Of a DNA stretch of 37,918 bases, positions 1-31,807 are shown piece after piece. The DNA comes from Acidimicrobiales bacterium. GTDB lineage: Bacteria; Actinomycetota; Acidimicrobiia; Acidimicrobiales; Palsa-688. The notes under the pieces are model-generated. The model had not been told where the DNA came from and did no database searches. It saw only the letters and a list, made by a program, of their open reading frames with translations. Location of the stretch: positions 1 through 37,918 of the forward strand of contig DATLUM010000020.1 in assembly GCA_035533095.1 (NCBI GenBank), in the 5' to 3' direction. Position 1 is the stretch's first letter. Each line of letters begins with the position of its first letter. A program made the translations under genes and the position numbers.

Positions 1-330
1 CGAGCCCAGGTAGGGAGCGTCGCCGAAGTTGAAGATCCCACCGTCCGACGCGACCAGCCAGTAGCCGCGGCCGTCCGCGGTGGAGGCCATGCCCACGATG
101 GGAGCGTTGAGGCGGGTGTTGCCAGTCGAGCCGTAATAACCCGCGTCGCCGAAGTTGAAGATCCCCCCGTCCGACGCGGCAAGCCAGTACCCGCCGCCAT
201 CGGGCGTACCGGAGATGTCGACGACTGGCTTGTTGAGGATGATCGATCCGGTCGATCCGCAGTACGGGAGGTTGCCGAAGTTGAAGACCCCGCCGTCGGA
301 GGCCGCCATGTAGTACCCGTTCGGAGCTCC
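1..330 (-). repeat. GYWLV repeat array 1 (three units visible, truncated)
   Basis: Units of about 126 bp encode 42-residue repeats. The first visible unit begins [15 protein letters not shown], the second [10 protein letters not shown], and the third [10 protein letters not shown] and is cut at base 1. The three complete proteins in this window have six units each, so about three more are expected beyond the edge. Confidence 0.85.
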
Positions 331-1839
331 GGACGGCCGGTTACAGGGCACTTGGATCGTCGGGGGAGGGGTGCCGGCGTTGCCGGTCAGTTGCGGGTCG
401 TGGTGGAACTCGGGCCATGCGCCGGCCTCGGAGACCACCCCCCCATTCGAGCCCGCCACCTCGAAGTGCTCGACCATCCCCTGGTTGCTGCCGTTGTAAC
501 CGGCGACGGTGATGCCGATCGTGCCATTCGGATCCGCCGTGATCAGCGGCGACGACTGCAGACCGAGACCCCGTTCGACCGCGGCGACCACGGCCCCGGT
601 CTTCCCGTCAAGGACCTCCGCGCCGGCAGTGGTGGGGACGACCACGTCCTGGTACCCCTGGCCGAACAGGTCGGCGGTGACCACACCGCCGATGACTTCA
701 CCCATAGCGGCGGTTCGCCAGATCACGGCACCGTTGGTGCCGTTGACGGCATAGACGCTGCCGCCACCGCTGCCGTTGTTGGTCCCCTCGACGACTTCGA
801 GCCCGCCGTTGCCGAACAGGTCAGCCAGCGCCGGGCTGCTCGTCGTGTCGCCGTCCAGGACGATTTCCCACTGCTTCGCGCAGTACTTGTTGATCGCGAT
901 GAGCGCGTGGTTGTCGCTGCCGCCGGCGAACACGCTCTCGTTGCCGGTGCCCACCACGACGCCGACCTGCCCGCCGGAGAGGAACTGGCCAATCGCCGGA
1001 GAAGACATGACGTCCTGGTTGGTGTCGTACTCGCAGTACAAGCCTTGATTCGGCTCGGAATAGCCGGCGTTGCCAGAGGGGCGCAGGATCCGAATATGCC
1101 CCCCGCCGGTGTACGTCTGGCCGTAAGCGACTCCTGCGGTTGACGCACCGCCGTCGATGATCTGGTTCGTCCCGTTGCCCTCGACGTCGCCGATGGCCGC
1201 GGTCGAGAAGACCGTGTCCGCTGTGAACCACGGAAACCCCGTGAGCCCGGCTCCGGTGGCGGCGTTGTAGGCGTCCATGTTCTGCCCGAGCGAGGGAGCG
1301 ACCACATCTACCTGGCCTTGCAGGTTGCCTACTGTCAGACCGGCGCTCTCGCCGTTGGCTTGGTAGTTGTTGCCCGCCGGGTCGTGCTCGATCTGACCCC
1401 ACAGTTGCTGGCCGCCGGTCGTCTCCGCGAAAGCTCCCCCGGCGTGCGGGTCGGCGGCGTTGCCCGCGCCGAAGAAGATCACTCCGCCGCTGACCGAGGG
1501 CGGCGAGTCCACCGGTACGCCGCCGGTGTTGACCGGCCACCCCGGGACAGTCGACCCGTTGGCGAGGTACTGGGCGTATACGTGGCCGGCACGGTCCCCG
1601 ACGATCGCGGCCAATCCGCCCGGCAGGCTGGCCACGACGGGTGAGGAGAGAGCGACCGGGTTGCCGACATCGTTGAACGTCACCGACCAGGTCTGGGTGA
1701 TGCTCGGCGTCGCGCTCGCCGGAGGTGTTGCGATCCCAGCAGACACGAGCGAGGCGCCCCCCAGTGCCGCCGCCAAACCGGCACCGATGATCGAACGCCG
1801 GCCCTTAGCGAGGGCGAGTCGGGTCAAATTCCACTTCAT
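1..1839 (-). CDS. Secreted VCBS/PQQ-like beta-propeller protein with C-terminal GYWLV repeats (3' end cut by window edge)
   Basis: An open frame of 613 codons runs from ATG at 1839 to the left edge without a stop, so the protein is partial at its C-terminus. Residues 1 to about 43 form a signal peptide: basic start ([15 protein letters not shown]), hydrophobic core, then PPASA before the mature part. Residues of about 45-490 carry repeated SSPAxADLxGNG and [13 protein letters not shown] stretches typical of FG-GAP/VCBS or PQQ-like propellers. From about residue 505 three units of the [15 protein letters not shown] repeat follow, and the third is cut. Cys pairs (LYCEYD, KYCAKQW) suggest an extracytoplasmic fold. 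No catalytic motif was recognised; a surface binding or adhesion role is an inference. A GGAGGTGG sequence lies 22 nt upstream of ATG, rather far for a ribosome site. Confidence 0.85.
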
Positions 1840-1858
1840 CGGAACAATTTTCGGAACA
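1840..1858. promoter_or_regulatory. Direct repeat CGGAACA x2 just upstream of the left-edge gene
   Basis: CGGAACA occurs at 1840-1846 and again at 1852-1858, a 12-nt period that ends next to the ATG of the minus-strand secreted protein. On the coding strand this reads TGTTCCG twice, separated by AAAAT. It could be an operator half-site pair or chance; there is no other support. Confidence 0.25.
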
Positions 1859-1925
1859 GCGCCACCTCCGCTTGAGCGGCACGGATCACCAGGGGCATCC
1901 ATCCTGTCCTCCGGAAACGTCTTGC

Positions 1926-1931
1926 TACAAT
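1926..1931 (+). promoter_or_regulatory. -10 element TACAAT for the flavin monooxygenase gene
   Basis: TACAAT fits the actinobacterial TAnnnT -10 consensus and would start transcription near 1938. That leaves a leader of about 20 nt containing GGGGAGGGAG, a ribosome-binding site placed correctly for ATG at 1959. I see no convincing -35 box. Confidence 0.55.
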
Positions 1932-1958
1932 TCGGACACACGGGGAGGGAGACCTGTA

Positions 1959-10283: not shown

Positions 10284-12143
10284 TTACGAGGCCTTGTGGG
10301 CGAACACGCCCAGGGCTTCGGACGAGAATCCGCTCACCGTCGATGCCGGATCCCCGAAGTACGGGGCGTCACCGAATGGGTAGACGCGCCCGCCGGCGCT
10401 CGACATGAGGTATCCGCCACCGTCGGCTGTCGGGCTGACACCGGTGATGGTGTCGACGATCCCCTCACCGGGGAGCGAACCGATGAATCCGGCGTCACCG
10501 AAGTTGAAGATCCCGCCGTCGCGCGCGACCAGCCAGTACCCGTGTCCGTCAGCAGTCGGCACCATCCCGACTATCGGCTGGTTCAGGCGGATCGACCCGG
10601 TCGATCCGTAGAAGCCTGCGTCACCGAAGTTGAAGATCCCCCCGTCGGCTGCCACCAGCCAGTAGCCGTGGCCGCTTGGCGTGGCGGCCATTCCGACCAC
10701 GGGCTCGTTCAGCTTCATGTTGCCCGTCGAGCCGTAAAAGGCGGCGTCACCGAAGTTGAAAATCCCTCCGTCGCCCGCGAAGAGCCAGTAGCCACCGCCG
10801 GTGGGCGTCGGGGCCATCCCGAGGACCGGGGCGTTGAGCTTCGTGCTGCCCGTCGAGCCGTAGAAGGCGGCGTCACCGAAATTGAAGATCCCCCCGTCGC
10901 CCGCGACGAGCCAGTACCCGTTGCCATCGAACGATGGCGCCATGCCGATAACGGGGGCGTTGAGCTGGCGTCCGAGGAGGGAGCCGTAAGACCCGGCCGA
11001 GCCGAAGGGGTACACCGCACCGCTCGAGGCGACGACCCAGTAGCCGTCGACACCGCCGCTGGATCCGACGTTGGTGATCGAGAACCAGTCGGACTTGAGC
11101 CCCAGCGCCCACTGGAACCGGTCGCCGGTGATCGTCACACGCCCCGACGAACCTGACAGCACCATCTGGATGACCCTGCCACCCATGTCGCCGAGCCCGT
11201 TGCGGGCGGTGATAGCGATCGACTGCAGGGTGCCCACCGAGGGGAATGCGTTCTGGACGGCCGAGACGGAGATCGACGTGTTCCAGTCGTGGTTGGGGTT
11301 CGAGGAGACCGAATCGCCTGCGTCGACGACTGCGGGGAAGGCCCCGCCTGCGGTGTAACCGCCGGTCGAGGAGGAGAATTCGGTCAGCGCGACCGATCCG
11401 GCGGGCCGGCCCGTGGGGTTGCCGGCCTGCCAGACGCGGACCTGGCCAGCCGTGCTCGACTGGGCGCTGTCGCTGTATTGCGTGTAGCTGCTGTTCTCCA
11501 CGGCACCTGCCACATCGGGATCGCCGTAGTACACCTGGCAAGAGGTCGTGTCGCAGATCGGACTGGCGCCACCACCTGTGTAAGCCCACGCGTAGCTGCG
11601 CGCGGCGACGGCCTGCGCCTGCAACGCGGCTTCGCCGTTGGTGCCCCAGGACGCCGGCGATTCCGCCGGGATGACACCGCGGACGTACGCCTCGAGCGGC
11701 ACCACATTGATGGTCTGATCGGACGAGGTCACCTGCACCGAACCCTGAAAGGCGCGCCACGTCCCGTTGGGCCAGGAGATGTAGACGTCTCCGCCCTGCG
11801 GCGTGAACGTCTCGCCAGCGCTGACCGTGTGCGTCCCGGTCGAGTCCTTGACCGTGATGCTGCTCTTGCCGTCGAGTTCGACGAGGTGGACGCTGATGTT
11901 CGGCGTACCGACCGAACCCATCGTGGTGTCGCCATAGAAGTGATCGAGGATCCACGTGTAGGACTGACCCTGCAGCGCGTAACCGTAGGCGCCGTACTGG
12001 CCCATCCCCCGCCCATGGCCCCAGCCGTGGCCGGCGAGGTACAGCGTCGACGGCAATGTCGAGGCGGCAGCCGGCGCGGCTTGGATGGCCGCTGCACAGG
12101 CCGCCGTCAGGATGGTCGTTACGGATACAAGCAGGCGTCGCAA
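10284..12143 (-). CDS. Secreted SpoIID/LytB-domain protein with C-terminal six-unit GYWLV module
   Basis: The 619-residue protein has a signal peptide (MRRLLVSVTTILTAACAAA to APAAAS). It then has a SpoIID/LytB-type domain: HGWGHGRGMGQYGAYGYA near the start, and YVRGVIPAESPASWG with the Glu in the position of the SpoIID catalytic Glu, followed by LQAQAVAARSYAW. SpoIID proteins cleave glycan strands of peptidoglycan stripped of peptides. Residues of about 365-619 are six GYWLV units. TTG 12143 was chosen because GGAGTGA lies 7 nt upstream and a compact signal peptide results; TTG 12188 would add 15 residues. The stop lies 4 bp from the convergent gmd stop. It is probably wall-associated. Confidence 0.88.
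   Translation of the reverse strand: MRRLLVSVTTILTAACAAAIQAAPAAASTLPSTLYLAGHGWGHGRGMGQYGAYGYALQGQSYTWILDHFYGDTTMGSVGTPNISVHLVELDGKSSITVKDSTGTHTVSAGETFTPQGGDVYISWPNGTWRAFQGSVQVTSSDQTINVVPLEAYVRGVIPAESPASWGTNGEAALQAQAVAARSYAWAYTGGGASPICDTTSCQVYYGDPDVAGAVENSSYTQYSDSAQSSTAGQVRVWQAGNPTGRPAGSVALTEFSSSTGGYTAGGAFPAVVDAGDSVSSNPNHDWNTSISVSAVQNAFPSVGTLQSIAITARNGLGDMGGRVIQMVLSGSSGRVTITGDRFQWALGLKSDWFSITNVGSSGGVDGYWVVASSGAVYPFGSAGSYGSLLGRQLNAPVIGMAPSFDGNGYWLVAGDGGIFNFGDAAFYGSTGSTKLNAPVLGMAPTPTGGGYWLFAGDGGIFNFGDAAFYGSTGNMKLNEPVVGMAATPSGHGYWLVAADGGIFNFGDAGFYGSTGSIRLNQPIVGMVPTADGHGYWLVARDGGIFNFGDAGFIGSLPGEGIVDTITGVSPTADGGGYLMSSAGGRVYPFGDAPYFGDPASTVSGFSSEALGVFAHKAS
10290..11050 (-). repeat. GYWLV repeat array 2 (six units)
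   Basis: Six 42-residue units of 126 bp each. Units 2-5 are close copies ([15 protein letters not shown]); the first (GYWVVASSGAVYPFG) and last (GYLMSSAGGRVYPFG) are divergent end units. The near-identical codons make the array a candidate for recombination with the other arrays. Confidence 0.9.
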
Positions 12144-12193
12144 AGAAAGATCACTCCGAGAGATCGGCCCCCGCCCAGGGCAGCTCAACTCGG

Positions 12194-12199
12194 TCTATA
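12194..12199 (-). promoter_or_regulatory. -10 element TATAGA upstream of the SpoIID-domain gene
   Basis: On the minus strand TATAGA would start transcription near 12188. This leaves a 45-nt leader with GGAGTGA before TTG 12143, and supports the shorter start. Confidence 0.4.
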
Positions 12200-12255
12200 T
12201 CGGCGCACCCGAGCGGAACATGAAGAAGAATCAGCCAATTCACCTGTGGCCGGTG

Positions 12256-14295
12256 CTAGCTGGAGCCGCTGACGACAGGTGCCGGAATGGCGACGCCGCC
12301 GAGCGAGCCGTGGAAGCGAGCATCGCCGAAGTTGAAGATGCCCCCGTCTGCGGCTACCAGCCAGTACCCGGCGCTGCCCGGGTCCGCGGCCATTCCGACG
12401 ACGGGCTGGTTCAGGCGGATGGCGCCTGTGGACCCGAAGTAGCCGGCGTCACCAAAATTGAAGATGCCCCCGTCGCGCGCCACCAGCCAGTAACCACGCC
12501 CTGTAGAGGTGCCGGCCATGCCGACGACAGGCTGGTTGAGCCTTATGGAGCCCGTGGAGCCGAAGTAGCCGGCGTCGCCGAAGTTGAAGATCCCGCCGTC
12601 CGCGGCCACCAGCCAGTAGCCGTTTCCGGTGGGCGTCGCCGCCATGCCGACCACCGGCTGGTTCAGATGAGACCCGCCCATGGAGCCGAGGTACGGCGCG
12701 TTGAAGTTGAAGATCCCGCCGTCTGCAGCAACGAGCCAGTAGCCGTGGGTGAGAGGGTCCTCGGCCATCCCGACGATGGGAGCGTTCAGTCGAATGTTGC
12801 CGGTGGATCCGAAGTAGCCGGCGTCACCGAAGTTGAAGATCCCACCATCCTTCGCCACCAACCAGTACCCGAGACCATCAGCGGTGCGCGTGATCCCGAC
12901 GACCGGTTGGTTGAGGTGAGTGCCCGCCAGGTCGCCTGCGTAGATGGACGAGCCGAAGGGGTAGACGCTGCCATCGGAGCCGGCCATGTCGTAGCCGTCG
13001 TAGACATTCGGAGGGCTCGCCTCCCCCGCGAGTGCCGCGGGGACATCCAGCATCCCGCCGTCGATCGGATTGCCTGACGGGCTGACGGGATTCGCGTCCG
13101 CCTCGAGCAGTGCCGTTACCTGCGGCGCGGTGAGCGAGGACCCGTTCGCGAGCATGAGTGCTGCTGCGGCGACCACCTGCGGGGCGGACATCGAGGTCCC
13201 GGTGTCCTCGTGATAGCCCCCGTCGTTCCAGGTGGAGAGGATGTCCACCCCCGGGGCGGCAATGTTGGCTGCCGGACCCCACTCGGAGAAGGCCTGCACC
13301 ACACCGTTGTTGTCGGTCGCGGCCACGGACAGGACGCCCGGATACGAAGCTGGGTAGGCAGGTTTGTCGCAGGCATCGTTGCCGGCTGCGGCCACGACGA
13401 CCACGTTGTGAGCGAGGGCGTACTCGACAGCCGCGTACTCGTCGGGATCGGGTCCCGAGTTGCTCGGGTCTATGCACGGGGAATCCGAAAGCGACATGTT
13501 GATCACGCGGTCGCCGGCGGACACTGCGGCGTAGATCGCGTTGGCGACGTCGAAGGTGTTGCCGTCGCCCTGGGAGTCCAGCACCTTGTAGATGTCCAGG
13601 CCGACACCCCAGCCGAGGCTGGCGACACCCTTGCTGTTGTCGGTGACGGCCGCGACGATCCCGGCGACGTGGGTGCCGTGACCGTTGTCGTCCTCTGCCA
13701 CTTGGGACGTGTCGTGGCACGCCGGGTCACCAGGGCAGTAGTTGTGAAGATCTGTCTGCGGGTCGATCTTGGCCGACAGGTCCTCGTGGCTGGCGTCGAC
13801 GCCGCTGTCCAGGACCGCCACCTTCACGCCGTCGCCGTGGGTCACCGCCCATGCGGCCGGCGCGCCGACGACGTTGAGGTAGCCGCTGTCACTCGCAGGC
13901 TGGGGAGGGTTGGTGTCAGTGAGGCAGGTCGCGACGTAGCACGGATCGTTCGGGGTGCTCGGCTGCGACGTGGCGTGGACCGCGCGGGGCACGCTGGCGT
14001 AGCGGACCCGCGGGTCCTGGCGGAGCCGGGCGAGCACTGGCTGCAACTCGGATGACTGGACCTTCAACAGGTATCTCCCGTGGGCCGCTGGCGCAGCCGG
14101 CGTGGCGACGGGCAGGCCAGCCAGGACGTCCGCGACACGCGACGCGCCCGAGGTCAAGCTGATCACTATCACCGAGGAGGTGCGTTGCGGCTGGGCACCG
14201 GCGGGGCGCGCCGGCAGAAGAGCGGCTACCAGGACGACAACTGCCGCAGCGCGGGCGGTATGAAGTCGCCCCAACCTTGCCCCTTCACCCGGCAT
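12256..14295 (-). CDS. Secreted subtilisin-like serine protease (S8) with C-terminal six-unit GYWLV module
   Basis: The 679-residue protein begins with a signal peptide (ARAAAVVVLVAALLPARPAGA). A propeptide-like inhibitor_I9 region follows (VIVISLTSGASRV to VRYASVPRAVH), then the S8 catalytic domain with Asp in AVLDSGVDASHEDL (about 161), His in NGHGTHVAGIVA (about 205) and Ser in GTSMSAPQV (about 368). All three catalytic residues are intact. Residues from about 432 to the end are six GYWLV units. Cysteines in CYVATC, NYCPGDPACHD and DACDK suggest disulfides. ATG 14295 is preceded by TACCCT 7 nt upstream, so it looks leaderless; the open frame to 14592 is shadow. It is separated from the SpoIID-domain gene by about 110 bp. 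Confidence 0.92.
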   Translation of the reverse strand: MPGEGARLGRLHTARAAAVVVLVAALLPARPAGAQPQRTSSVIVISLTSGASRVADVLAGLPVATPAAPAAHGRYLLKVQSSELQPVLARLRQDPRVRYASVPRAVHATSQPSTPNDPCYVATCLTDTNPPQPASDSGYLNVVGAPAAWAVTHGDGVKVAVLDSGVDASHEDLSAKIDPQTDLHNYCPGDPACHDTSQVAEDDNGHGTHVAGIVAAVTDNSKGVASLGWGVGLDIYKVLDSQGDGNTFDVANAIYAAVSAGDRVINMSLSDSPCIDPSNSGPDPDEYAAVEYALAHNVVVVAAAGNDACDKPAYPASYPGVLSVAATDNNGVVQAFSEWGPAANIAAPGVDILSTWNDGGYHEDTGTSMSAPQVVAAAALMLANGSSLTAPQVTALLEADANPVSPSGNPIDGGMLDVPAALAGEASPPNVYDGYDMAGSDGSVYPFGSSIYAGDLAGTHLNQPVVGITRTADGLGYWLVAKDGGIFNFGDAGYFGSTGNIRLNAPIVGMAEDPLTHGYWLVAADGGIFNFNAPYLGSMGGSHLNQPVVGMAATPTGNGYWLVAADGGIFNFGDAGYFGSTGSIRLNQPVVGMAGTSTGRGYWLVARDGGIFNFGDAGYFGSTGAIRLNQPVVGMAADPGSAGYWLVAADGGIFNFGDARFHGSLGGVAIPAPVVSGSS
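12262..13000 (-). repeat. GYWLV repeat array 3 (six units)
   Basis: Six units. The first is divergent (GYDMAGSDGSVYPFG), as in array 2; unit 3 lacks the GD of FGDA. Inner units share long runs of identical sequence with array 2. Confidence 0.9.
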
Positions 14296-28884: not shown

Positions 28885-30495
28885 CTAGGTGCAGGCGTAG
28901 TCCTGATCGTAGGTCGGCCCAGTCGAGTACTGCACGAGTACCGTCCTGCCTTCGGCAAACGGCGAGTACATCCAACCATTCGAGGCGGGCACCGCGTTGT
29001 TGCAGATGTTCTGTGCGCTGTAGGTACCGCCCGAGATGCCTTCTCCTCCTGCCATCCAAAGTGAGATCCCAGGGGCGTTCACGTAGCCACCACCCGTAAT
29101 GATCGACCATTGGTAGTTGGTGGAGTAGATGCCTGGGATGACGCCGCTTGAGCGCAGCCCTGCTATGGCACCGGCGATCTCGTACGTATTCTCCGTCTGC
29201 CCCTGGGTGCCGCCCGGCCACGGAACGCCGGCGTCGGCGGAGCATGGATTCGTCGTCTTACATTCGACATCAAGCCACCAGAGGTTCGGGTACACGCCGA
29301 GGGAATGCGCTGTTGAGACCCAGTACTGCGCCCAGTAGTTGCCGAAGTGGTAAGCCTCGCAATTGATGTCGCCCTTGCATGCAGTCGGCTGAGATTCCGT
29401 TGGGGTGCCCTGCATAGGATCCATATAGATGTAAGTGGAGATGTTCTGGCCTGCCCAAGCGGCTTCTTGGGCATAGCACGGGTTCTGGTAACCGTTGACC
29501 GCGCCCGAGATCTCCACAATCGAAATCGGCGCCGTGGGCGGCAAGTTGTTGCACTGCCACTTGGAGATGTCGTAGCCCGTCGATCCTGGCGGGAAGGGGT
29601 ACCCGTTGTCCGTCGATGCGATCCCCACGACGGGCGCCGGACCGGGATGGGACCCAGTCGATCCGAGATAGGGCGCGTTGCCGAAGGTGAAGATGCCGCC
29701 GTCGGTCGCCACCAGCCAATAGCCGCCCCCGTTGGCAGTAGCCGCCATCCCGGTCACGGGCTTGTTGAGCTTGATCGCGCCCGTCGAGCCGTCATAGTGG
29801 GCGTCGCCGAAGTTGAATATCCCGCCGTCGGCAGCCACCAACCAGTAACCGCCGCCGGATCCGCCACCGGCGGGGTCGGCGGCCATGCCCACAACGGCCT
29901 GGTTGAGGCGGATGTTGCCGGTCGATCCGTAGAACTGAGCGTCGCCGAAGTTGAACACTCCGCCATCGGCAGCCACCAACCAGTAGCCCAGTCCGTCAGG
30001 GGTCGCCGCCATGCCGACGATCGGCTGGTTGAGGCGGATGTTGCCGGTGGACCCGAAGAAGGGTGCGCCGAAGTTGAAGACACCACCATCGGCGGCGACC
30101 AACCAGTAGCCCCCGGTGGCAGGATCGGCCGCCATGCCGACGATCGGCTGGTTGAGGCGGACGTTGCCGGTGGACCCGTAGAAGCCGGCATCCCCGTAGG
30201 TGAATACCCCGCCATCCGATGCGACCAACCAGTAGCCCAGCCCGCTGTTGGTGCCTGCCATGCCGACAACGGGCTTGTTGAGGTACTGGCCCCGCATGGA
30301 TCCATAAAGGGGCGCGTCGAAGCCGTATACGCCGCCGTCGGAGGCGACCAGCCAGTACCCGGGGGATCCGGACGTTGTGGTTGCCGCCGCCGACTTGGCG
30401 GTCCCTGGAGTTCCGATCGCGACCAGAGTCCCGAGGCCAAGAGTCGCCACCGCCACTACGGCCGCACGGATGAGAGAGTGACGCGCGAGTTTCAT
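28885..30495 (-). CDS. Secreted GH25-like hydrolase with N-terminal six-unit GYWLV module
   Basis: The 536-residue protein has a signal peptide (MKLARHSLIRAAVVAVATLGLG to AKSAA), six GYWLV units at about 46-300, and then a GH25-type lysozyme domain. The latter begins GYDISKWQ at about 306, matching the GH25 start GIDVSxWQ. The DxE catalytic pair is present as WWLDVE at about 407, and GIYSTNYQW follows. GH25 enzymes cut the glycan strands of peptidoglycan. Several Cys (QCNN, NPCYAQ, TACKGDINCEA, VECKTTNPC) suggest disulfides. The repeat module is N-terminal here, but C-terminal in the other three proteins. ATG 30495 follows GAGGAAGA. Confidence 0.88.
   Translation of the reverse strand: MKLARHSLIRAAVVAVATLGLGTLVAIGTPGTAKSAAATTTSGSPGYWLVASDGGVYGFDAPLYGSMRGQYLNKPVVGMAGTNSGLGYWLVASDGGVFTYGDAGFYGSTGNVRLNQPIVGMAADPATGGYWLVAADGGVFNFGAPFFGSTGNIRLNQPIVGMAATPDGLGYWLVAADGGVFNFGDAQFYGSTGNIRLNQAVVGMAADPAGGGSGGGYWLVAADGGIFNFGDAHYDGSTGAIKLNKPVTGMAATANGGGYWLVATDGGIFTFGNAPYLGSTGSHPGPAPVVGIASTDNGYPFPPGSTGYDISKWQCNNLPPTAPISIVEISGAVNGYQNPCYAQEAAWAGQNISTYIYMDPMQGTPTESQPTACKGDINCEAYHFGNYWAQYWVSTAHSLGVYPNLWWLDVECKTTNPCSADAGVPWPGGTQGQTENTYEIAGAIAGLRSSGVIPGIYSTNYQWSIITGGGYVNAPGISLWMAGGEGISGGTYSAQNICNNAVPASNGWMYSPFAEGRTVLVQYSTGPTYDQDYACT
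29611..30360 (-). repeat. GYWLV repeat array 4 (six units)
   Basis: Six units: [43 protein letters not shown] twice, [15 protein letters not shown] and GYWLVATDGGIFTFG. Unit 4 has a Gly-rich insertion (AGGGSGGG) at its end, and unit 3 lacks GD. The first unit is again the divergent one with VYGF. Confidence 0.9.
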
Positions 30496-30568
30496 ACCAT
30501 CTTCCTCGTGTGGGCCCGCCGCCGAGCCCCGGCACTGCGAAGAGGTTAAACCATGCCGGGCCTGCCGG

Positions 30569-31807
30569 TCAGTCGGCCTCAGTCCCCTCTCCGTGCGCCC
30601 GGTCACCACACTGGACGCTGTCATGCCGGCCCCGCTCCCTGGGCGAGGTGAGGACACCCTTGAGCCGAGCCCAGCGCGACCCGCGAGCTCCCGCCTTGTC
30701 GACCTGGAGGGACAGGTAGGCCACCCCGCCGACGGGAATCGGGATCCAGAAATTCACCAGCCGGTATGCGACCACACCCAGCGTTGCCACGCCTCTTGCG
30801 GTTCCGAATCCGACGAGCAGTGAGGTGAGGGTGGCCTCGACGACCCCAAGACCGCCTGGCGTGATGGGAATCACTGCCAGCACGTAGGCGAGGCCGTACG
30901 CGACGAGCAGCCCATCGGGGTTCACCCAATGACCGAATGCTCCGACGAATACGGCGAGAGAAGCGGCGTCCAGTAGCCAGTTCGCGGCCGCCCAGGAGAC
31001 ACCCTCCACCAGGAGCCGGCGCTGGCCGGCCAGGTCCTGGAGCCGGCCGGCAATGCGCTCGAAGGTGTGCCGCAGAGCGCGGCCGTCGACGAAGGGAAGG
31101 CGCCCACCTGCGCGCTCGAGCGCCGCCCCAGCGCGGTCGCCGCCCTTCGTGAACATCAGAAGCAGTGTGGTGGAGGCCCCGAGGAGGAGGATCCCGACGA
31201 TCGCCGCGATCAGATACACAGCTGAGAATCCCCATACGGGAATAGATACGATGAGGGCGAGCCAGAGGATCACGTTGAGTACCACGGCAGAGCCGATGCC
31301 TTGGGTTGCGATCGCGAAACCGACGTCGCTCCCGGGAAGGCCGGCGTTCGTCATTAGGCGGTATGCCAGGGCGGTCCCCGTAGCGGTGCCACCAGGAGTG
31401 CAGTGCGAGACGGACAGAGTCGTCAGCTGTATCCGCAGCAGATGGAAGAGGGAGATACGGTCCCGGGCCGGCAGGAGGGTTCGGGTCAGCTGGGCATAGC
31501 TGAGCAGGGCTCCCGCCTCGAGAGCGAGCCCGGCAAGCAACAGGAGCGGGTTCACGTCGGCGAGCAGGTGTACGACCTTGCGCGGACCCGCCAGCTGTGG
31601 GACCACGAGGTATTCGAGTATCAGCGCGAGCAGGAGCAGGCGGCCCACTTGCCAAACGGGAGCAGGAAACACCTGGCGAAAACGGCTGCGCTTCTTGGGC
31701 GGAGCACCCGTCTCCGCCCCCGGCTCTACTCCCGCCATAACGGCTTCGTGACTGTGCTTCGCCGCGTCCGGTGCCTCGTCACCGCTCGCACCCGATGCCG
31801 ATGTCAA
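30569..31807 (-). CDS. Lysylphosphatidylglycerol synthase-like / UPF0104 flippase-type membrane protein
   Basis: The 412-residue polytopic protein has about eight hydrophobic segments and the family signatures SHCTPGGTATGTALAYRLM and ITPGGLGVVEATLTSLLVGFG near the C-terminus. The family is the transmembrane part of MprF/LPG synthases and its stand-alone relatives; the aminoacyl-transfer domain is absent. Stand-alone members are thought to move lipids or lipid-linked sugars. It has hydrophilic N- and C-terminal tails. The TTG 31807 start is uncertain; ATG 31738 would remove 23 residues and has only a weak upstream purine stretch. It lies 73 bp upstream of the GH25-like gene on the same strand. 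Confidence 0.82.
   Translation of the reverse strand: MTSASGASGDEAPDAAKHSHEAVMAGVEPGAETGAPPKKRSRFRQVFPAPVWQVGRLLLLALILEYLVVPQLAGPRKVVHLLADVNPLLLLAGLALEAGALLSYAQLTRTLLPARDRISLFHLLRIQLTTLSVSHCTPGGTATGTALAYRLMTNAGLPGSDVGFAIATQGIGSAVVLNVILWLALIVSIPVWGFSAVYLIAAIVGILLLGASTTLLLMFTKGGDRAGAALERAGGRLPFVDGRALRHTFERIAGRLQDLAGQRRLLVEGVSWAAANWLLDAASLAVFVGAFGHWVNPDGLLVAYGLAYVLAVIPITPGGLGVVEATLTSLLVGFGTARGVATLGVVAYRLVNFWIPIPVGGVAYLSLQVDKAGARGSRWARLKGVLTSPRERGRHDSVQCGDRAHGEGTEAD

Follow-up and report, generated by a model that had tools for sequence, protein, structure and literature searches.

The 37,918-nucleotide stretch analysed here (the window) comes from an Acidimicrobiales bacterium of the Palsa-688 lineage and is contig C20 in full, from an assembly of 3.44 Mb in 142 contigs. 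It encodes four secreted proteins that carry tandem copies of a unit of about 42 residues. We propose, at a probability of about 0.68, that such units are the blades of an uncatalogued, six-bladed β-propeller that holds secreted enzymes on the envelope and that phages have borrowed in fractions of six. The most interesting result concerns sequences beyond the window, namely phage lysins with one, two, three or six blades, many of which have a start site from which the rest of the ring could be supplied. The four carriers and their blades, as delimited with a hidden Markov model (HMM) of the unit, are located as follows.

10284..12188, minus strand: secreted SpoIID/LytB-type protein with a C-terminal propeller (P0002); Pfam SpoIID at residues 157-252
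10341..11045, minus strand: six blades of the SpoIID-type protein (unit HMM), at 10923-11045, 10797-10919, 10671-10793, 10545-10667, 10419-10541 and 10341-10415
12256..14295, minus strand: secreted S8 subtilase with a C-terminal propeller (P0003); Pfam Peptidase_S8
12268..12996, minus strand: six blades of the S8 protease (unit HMM), at 12874-12996, 12754-12870, 12625-12744, 12499-12621, 12379-12495 and 12268-12369
28885..30657, minus strand: open reading frame of a secreted protein with an N-terminal propeller and a C-terminal domain earlier labelled GH25-like (P0001); likely start at the Met at 30495
29602..30360, minus strand: six blades of P0001 (unit HMM), the ring used for folding, at 30241-30360, 30118-30237, 29992-30111, 29866-29988, 29728-29850 and 29602-29724
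1..1941, minus strand: left-edge secreted protein with a PQQ-like N-terminal part and a cut propeller (P0004); weak Pfam matches to PQQ_2 and Beta-prop_ACSF4, under the curated cut-off
1..318, minus strand: three visible blades of P0004 (unit HMM), truncated by the contig end

A first-pass annotation of this DNA, whose span of 10284-14295 takes in two of the four carriers, had counted six units in each of the three complete ones, and we recovered the same number by translation and with the unit HMM. The repeat length of about 42 residues given there also agreed with our measurements (41-46 residues, save for last units truncated by the protein end). The HMM was built from 566 units; those of the window scored 19-84 bits, against a top score of 8.8 bits among 800 shuffled versions of the four window proteins. 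Pfam matches confirmed the SpoIID and S8 labels (E = 3.3e-19 and 1.6e-48, respectively). The label "GH25-like" for the protein at 28885-30657 found no such backing, as neither a Pfam GH25 match nor a PDB sequence match was obtained at E ≤ 1, and we dropped it. The window proteins start with signal-like hydrophobic stretches, as read from the sequence. Their ring had no significant match in Pfam, NCBIfam or PDB sequences, and none of the four proteins matched the Pfam NHL or YWTD (LDL-receptor class B) families at E ≤ 1. The best hit of a profile search of the PDB with the ring was HERC2, which is of the RCC1 type, at a non-significant E-value of 0.024.

The closed propeller that the first-pass annotation had conjectured is well supported by structure prediction. 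From a 63-row alignment of six-unit modules (three from the window and 60 from related loci), AlphaFold2 yielded a model of the 29602-30360 ring with a mean predicted local distance difference test score (pLDDT) of 93.9 and a predicted template modelling score (pTM) of 0.90. DSSP assigned 18 strands to the model, three per unit, leaving the fourth strand segment (FYGS) unassigned. A structural search with VIA-align placed YWTD propellers at the top (megalin, ApoER2, LRP6, LRP4, nidogen and LDLR; Z 16-19, root-mean-square deviation 3.5-4.2, 229-244 residues aligned), followed by NHL propellers (Brat, Thin and TRIM2; Z 16-17), with the top row covering residues 1-263 of 265. Foldseek, ranked by E-value, listed WD40-type and other propellers first, with template modelling scores of about 0.5. 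Both YWTD and NHL propellers are six-bladed.

The ends of the arrays point in the same direction. Many arrays open with strand 3 or strand 1 rather than with strand 2 (GYW) and end later or earlier, the sum still being six (L117, L120, L124, L229, L232, L233, L235, L242 and L336, for example). Because these permuted ends add up to six, the ring is probably closed by N- and C-terminal strands together, a feature for which an open array has no need. An open solenoid was rejected on the basis of the predicted fold and of closure across permuted ends. Each 42-residue unit would thus give three regular strands, with the array beginning at one strand and ending at the preceding one so that its terminal strands close the ring.

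How constant the number six is depends on the sample. In the genome of the window, 16 of the 22 complete arrays had six blades, four had five, one had four and one had two or three; these counts were made by eye, including several sixth blades, and leave aside carrier C68 and three further arrays truncated by contig ends. Contigs of this assembly end inside repeats at C20:1, C62:7063 and C123:1, as expected if repeats stop the assembler. For draft genomes of the same family, we chose 60 stretches among the top-scoring places that a two-unit query listed. Their 57 clean arrays (without frameshifts and lying wholly within the region) comprised 35 with six blades, eight with five, three with four, seven with three and four with two, where one array split by a masked stretch (L154) was entered as a two and a three. 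Thirteen more arrays contained frameshifts or stops, one frameshifted array spanning 6.5 units, and four lay at edges. Nineteen of the short or cut arrays were re-read by eye and did not become six.

A scan of genome contigs with a six-unit query, limited to the 80 highest-scoring of at least 570 places, gave 95 distinct arrays, of which 85 had six units, one was longer, three were near five and six were cut; with this query and selection, the counts lean to six. The longer one (L071, 7.8 units, about eight) is the sole distinct bacterial array above 6.3 units in this set. In three highly contiguous genomes (G062 with one contig, G238 with four and G256 with ten), where every search place was read with the HMM and by eye (L243 being settled by eye), 24 of the 25 arrays had six blades. 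A fourth genome (G567, ten contigs, many frameshifts) had six at all 28 of its best places, 25 by a frame-free count and three by eye, and was kept out of this tally since only these places of the six-unit query were covered. As the automatic, frame-bound tally undercounts in this frameshift-rich genome, it was replaced by the frame-free count and inspection by eye. Thus, of the constancy claimed in the first-pass annotation, a strong preference for six remains; with arrays of three, four and five in drafts, including the genome of the window, and one of about eight, six is rarely exceeded in bacterial arrays and is not a rule.

The left-edge gene cannot be read past three units because the window begins at contig base 1, and the first-pass annotation had predicted three more. 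Nine of its 13 relatives have six units, including the closest one (L158, 69% identity), and the remaining four comprise one with four units, one scoring 4.71 and two that stop at 2.5; one of those with six (L188) is truncated, and its alignment spans only 68 residues. Given that the relatives mostly have six, the prediction is likely right. Relatives of the other carriers likewise mostly have six, some rows in these comparisons being one gene present in two collections. Exceptions among S8 relatives are two with five units (L138 and L185) and some broken ones in the frameshift-rich genome, and among P0001 relatives one with five (L180). Among the SpoIID-type relatives, a two-ring protein (L230) reached six only by eye, and a frame matching P0002 (L334) had no units within reach.

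Two further peculiarities of bacterial arrays were observed. At L047 (4509-6491), the genome of the window encodes a tandem two-ring protein, whose first ring is strongly diverged (six by eye) and whose second has five units. In the single-contig genome (L227-L231), most blades are about 51 residues long, and the insert after FYGN is nearly identical across blades and genes.

We compared blades across 117 non-redundant six-blade rings. The first blade is 0.56-0.60 identical to the others, and neighbouring blades among 2-5 have identities of 0.69-0.76. This lower identity agrees with the divergent first unit of the first-pass annotation, which gave its motif as VYPFG or VYGF; the motif holds in the three complete carriers, but the left-edge gene reads VFNFG. 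In the SpoIID-type protein the last unit is divergent as well. For blades 2-5, identity was 0.707 within a ring, 0.631 between the same positions of different rings and 0.627 between different positions, but in only 40 of the 117 rings were the blades closer to each other than to those of the nearest other ring. Judged from these sequences, the blades look homogenised or re-amplified. That six is held nonetheless suggests selection for closure.

With the two-unit query, 29 of the 32 genomes of the window's family had at least 11 matches. Beyond the family, positive genomes numbered 49 of 118 in an order draw, 24 of 148 and 93 of 394 in class draws and 20 of 296 in a phylum draw, these order, class and phylum samples overlapping; 15 of the phylum-draw positives came from beyond the class, including a few weak ones. 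By title, the 80 loci of the six-unit-query scan comprised 34 Acidimicrobi-, three Acidithrix or Acidiferrimicrobium and 39 other actinobacterial entries, as well as two Acidobacteriota and two Chloroflexi (draft bins). Carriers per genome numbered about 24 in the genome of the window, 15 in G238, five in G062 and four in G256. In one actinobacterial family outside the class (f88), each genome had three to four two-unit matches, perhaps one ring gene each, and the match in one of its genomes (L333) is interrupted by an in-frame stop.

The proteins to which the ring is attached indicate what it may do. In the genome of the window, its partners include SpoIID, S8, CHAP, Amidase_3, PGA_cap, polysaccharide deacetylase and a weak M10 match, together with Ig-like domains, a right-handed β-helix and a BNR-type propeller; several flanks have no Pfam match. 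Ten flanks from the contiguous genomes matched Amidase_2 (twice), M23, Glucosaminidase (below the cut-off), YkuD, trypsin, GSDH and FG-GAP, two remaining unmatched. Among 90 flanks of the six-unit-query loci, SpoIID was the most frequent (nine), followed by PQQ_2 (seven), S8 (five) and NHL (five, all outside the rings, which were excluded); Amidase_2, deacetylase and CAP occurred twice each. In these raw counts, uncorrected for genome background, peptidoglycan-active enzymes are prominent among the partners without being exclusive. From the architecture and these partners, the most likely function of the ring is envelope binding. Acidimicrobiia and some other Actinomycetota would fuse it C- or N-terminally to secreted proteins, many of them peptidoglycan-active and numbering from a few to some tens per genome, and it would tether them to the bacterial envelope, most likely to the cell wall.

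Genes for S8 and SpoIID-type ring proteins co-occur on one stretch at several loci (L058/L137, L090/L169, L138, L185, L158, L122, L114 and L119). Since this pairing is kept in several related genomes, the two genes may form a functional unit.

In a scan of viral contigs (best 80 of 83 places), the unit was found in lysins. Pfam domains among the 75 viral carriers scanned were Amidase_2 in 49, GH25 in three and PG_binding_1 in one, and the 25 PHROGs listed comprised 21 endolysins and three amidases. Most viral carriers scanned thus have a peptidoglycan-hydrolase domain within a phage genome, as is characteristic of endolysins. Phage structural genes adjoin three of the four viral loci whose neighbours were scanned, namely a terminase large subunit and a tail fibre (L282), two tail-fibre genes (L276) and a virion structural protein (L262); the fourth (L278) had a DNA methyltransferase-type match only. 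In carriers with two or three blades, the blades are C-terminal, mostly followed by one to six residues.

Blade counts in these proteins were restricted. HMM counts on 77 complete viral reading frames (four rows truncated by contig ends having been dropped) gave one blade in two frames, two in 36, three in 32, six in five and twelve in two, and no chain had four or five. One of the two-blade carriers retained (L272) looks bacterial, and the three-blade count of two weak ones (L309 and L330) is unsure. Counts mix within amidase types: two amidase trees require a minimum of eight and three count changes, and their well-supported branches force three and two, although long branches make the details unsure.

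Some viral carriers stand apart. Two proteins (L310 and L312) end in a single blade after a Met. Two others (L254 and L255; 1,025 and 1,067 residues) have 12 diverged units, read as two rings, and their relative L262 has six. In a phage collection, the single record matched was GX15bay (L331, 4584-8822), whose 1,413-residue frame in the tail region is annotated as glycoside hydrolase family 25 and contains two strongly diverged sets that we read as six units each, separated by another domain, the final unit of the second set being read by eye.

We modelled one two-blade lysin (L289) with AlphaFold2 from a 29-row alignment and obtained an overall pLDDT of 81.3 and a pTM of 0.63. The enzyme part has an amidase fold, with PlyP100 as best match (Z 16.2), then PlyL, LysC, XlyA and other amidases. 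For residues 175-256, the one structural match listed was a G-protein β-propeller (Z 7.5, 80 residues). The blade part forms six strands as two 1-2-3 sets, with blocks in residues 181-250 at pLDDT 81-94. The modelled chain thus holds two whole blades, which is what one third of a six-bladed ring needs.

In two- and three-blade lysins, the first blade frequently opens with Met or Val, in many cases preceded by a Gly-Gly linker encoded as GGA GGA. We scored a signal where a start codon before the first blade was accompanied by a Shine-Dalgarno match of five or more bases, and found this signal in 28 of the 36 lysins with two blades and in 22 of the 33 with three. In 60 sets of synonymously recoded sequences, it occurred in 23% and 21%, with maxima of 12 and 11, respectively. 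The same signal was present in one of seven viral carriers with six or 12 blades and in five of 108 C-terminal six-blade rings of bacteria. Restricted to the junction, 8-11 codons before GYW, it preceded 37 of 68 first blades, one of 100 inner blades of these lysins and two of 122 bacterial rings; in some lysins the start lies a few codons further upstream. The junction residue of two-blade lysins is Met in 24 and Val in the others, 11 of the 12 Val codons being GTG. Most of these lysins, though not all, thus have the arrangement of type II internal-start endolysins, in which a start codon and its Shine-Dalgarno sequence lie between the enzyme and the binding part.

The position of this start site suggests a short form made of blades alone, which would complete a ring of six. 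Phages place the same blade as their hosts at the endolysin C-terminus, mostly two or three per chain and rarely one or six, and the start codon at the first blade, with its own Shine-Dalgarno sequence, would give rise to the short form. One full-length lysin together with two 2-blade forms, or with one 3-blade form, would then complete the ring. We give slightly better than even odds to the proposal that phages have divided an envelope-binding propeller of six blades evenly between chains (one, two, three or six blades in lysins, or two full rings in other viral proteins, but not four or five), the internal start adding the blade-only chains to each ring, and that the count sets the number of subunits and has switched repeatedly among related lysins.

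To place the module among known systems, we compared it with published propellers and endolysins. It resembles YWTD and NHL propellers in predicted fold, blade length of about 42 residues and best structural matches, but differs in its low identity to them (6-16% in aligned rows) and in the three regular strands per blade of its model. Fragments of one six-bladed NHL propeller are reported to regain the parental blade number (PMC6805158). Repetitive propellers such as WRAP and VCBS (PMC9218822, PMC6805158) share with the module a similarity of blades 2-5 that is on average greater within a ring, occasional arrays that depart from the usual size, and frameshifted copies; here, however, six is closely held, and many copies sit on varied secreted enzymes in several genomes. 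Pereira and Lupas (2022) expected the blade number of repetitive propellers to vary about a preferred value and found that it does, and the present module is not among the families named in the available part of that paper (PMC9218822).

The phage arrangement can be compared with three systems, the lectin BambL, endolysins with an internal start and an endolysin with a domain derived from the host domain CWB2. BambL is a homotrimer and is not known to use an internal start, and CWB2 has a fold unrelated to the propeller. Short chains of BambL trimerise into one six-bladed lectin ring with six sites (PMC9764287), the kind of state we propose for two-blade lysins; BambL differs in being a free lectin without an enzyme, and the likeness considered here is one of architecture. 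No BambL-like lectin appeared among the 50 VIA-align rows listed for either model, an absence that carries no evidential weight. In the type II internal-start endolysins CTP1L, LysIME-EF1 and Lys170, binding-only forms assemble with the full-length enzyme (PMC12203907, PMC4110038). They share with the lysins described here an enzyme followed by a C-terminal non-catalytic part and an in-frame start at the junction; in the present lysins, by contrast, the binding part consists of propeller blades in copies that are divisors or multiples of six, and the short form and the oligomer are those we propose. A Clostridioides phage endolysin contains a domain derived from host CWB2 (PMC9045149), which likewise represents phage use of a simplified host wall-protein domain, the host domain here being a propeller. 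Literature searches retrieved no paper on Acidimicrobiia phage endolysins or on the sequence of this repeat, and none linking propeller, peptidoglycan hydrolase and cell wall binding in Actinobacteria. Searches on Acidimicrobiia propeller repeats found only unrelated papers, and those on β-propeller cell wall binding domains of endolysins only a review on other proteins.

Several observations weigh against a six-bladed, envelope-binding propeller shared in fractions with phages. The ring is a predicted model, judged closed from structural matches, and the lysin model is moderate, its five versions ranging from 81.3 to 62.8 in pLDDT. In the draft relatives, 22 of the 57 clean arrays differ from six, and the single-contig genome G062 has an array of four nearly identical units (L227). 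Assembly collapse as the cause of such short arrays was not supported: the longest exact DNA word common to the units had a median of 38 bases in 25 sub-six arrays and 31 bases in 51 others (Mann-Whitney p = 0.24), although a collapse might itself erase the evidence of its occurrence. Not all partners are wall enzymes, the several exceptions including GSDH, trypsin, Ig-like repeat proteins and other propellers, and two-blade chains might form other assemblies. As for the start site, a bare ATG or GTG lies near the junction in 50 of 100 inner blades and 59 of 68 first blades; as inner blades often have such codons as well, the codon by itself says less, and the distinguishing feature is the Shine-Dalgarno sequence. 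The junction Val codon of three-blade lysins is GTG in only eight of 14. Moreover, the junction signal is the majority state in just nine of 26 clusters at 60% identity (13 with a four-base cut), and the lysin sequences are therefore not independent.

These points bear unequally on the alternatives. The short and long arrays would fit a blade number that varies freely in bacteria, six being simply the most frequent number, as is seen in other propellers that were amplified recently. Five, four and three occur in drafts, five and four in the genome of the window, four in L227 and about eight in L071, and such a spread is reported for other families (PMC9218822). Yet little exceeds six (L071, the only one above 6.3 in the six-unit-query set, and the frameshifted array of 6.5 in the drafts) while many arrays fall below it, and the 24 of 25 in the three highly contiguous genomes lead us to regard free variation as doubtful, if a serious possibility. 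The existence of two-, three-, four- and five-unit arrays, and the near interchangeability of blades 2-5 between positions, could also be explained by an open polyvalent array, in which each unit binds its ligand alone and no ring is needed. Choline-binding repeats are an example of such an array. We consider this very improbable here, given the confident propeller model with its near full-length matches to propellers, the dominance of six with permuted ends summing to it, and the absence of four or five blades from the 77 complete viral carriers. A six-bladed propeller could instead serve a purpose other than wall binding, as a module for protein-protein contacts or surface adhesion or as a regulator of the attached enzyme. 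Many propellers bind proteins, and Ig-like, GSDH, trypsin and FG-GAP partners do occur. This appears unlikely, since many host partners act on peptidoglycan and since the blades form the C-terminal non-catalytic part of phage endolysins, the usual place of a cell-wall-binding domain (PMC12203907).

For the phages, finally, lysins with two or three blades might act as monomers or as full-length homo-oligomers, the start signal being an accident of the codons of the Gly-Gly linker. Gly-Gly-Ala favours GGAGGA by itself, so that recoding keeps the five-base match in 21-23% of cases, kinship inflates the counts, and the Val codons at the three-blade junction are unbiased. The observed numbers, however, far exceed those of all 60 recoded sets, the two-blade junction is Met or, with one exception, Val encoded by GTG, and inner blades are nearly devoid of the Shine-Dalgarno sequence. 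We therefore judge this reading improbable and prefer a six-bladed ring assembled from fractions, the missing blades of which could come from the internal start site.

This work names a large, unannotated domain family and assigns it a testable role, that of securing secreted wall enzymes to the envelope in a lineage that has been little studied. The family is also a natural experiment on fixed blade number, as homogenisation should scatter the counts, yet six dominates in single chains and the complete viral chains have only divisors or multiples of six. The blade count per chain would set the number of subunits, and possibly of catalytic domains, in each ring. In phages, the blades are predicted to represent a new kind of endolysin binding part, which would be a useful probe for bacteria that are hard to study.

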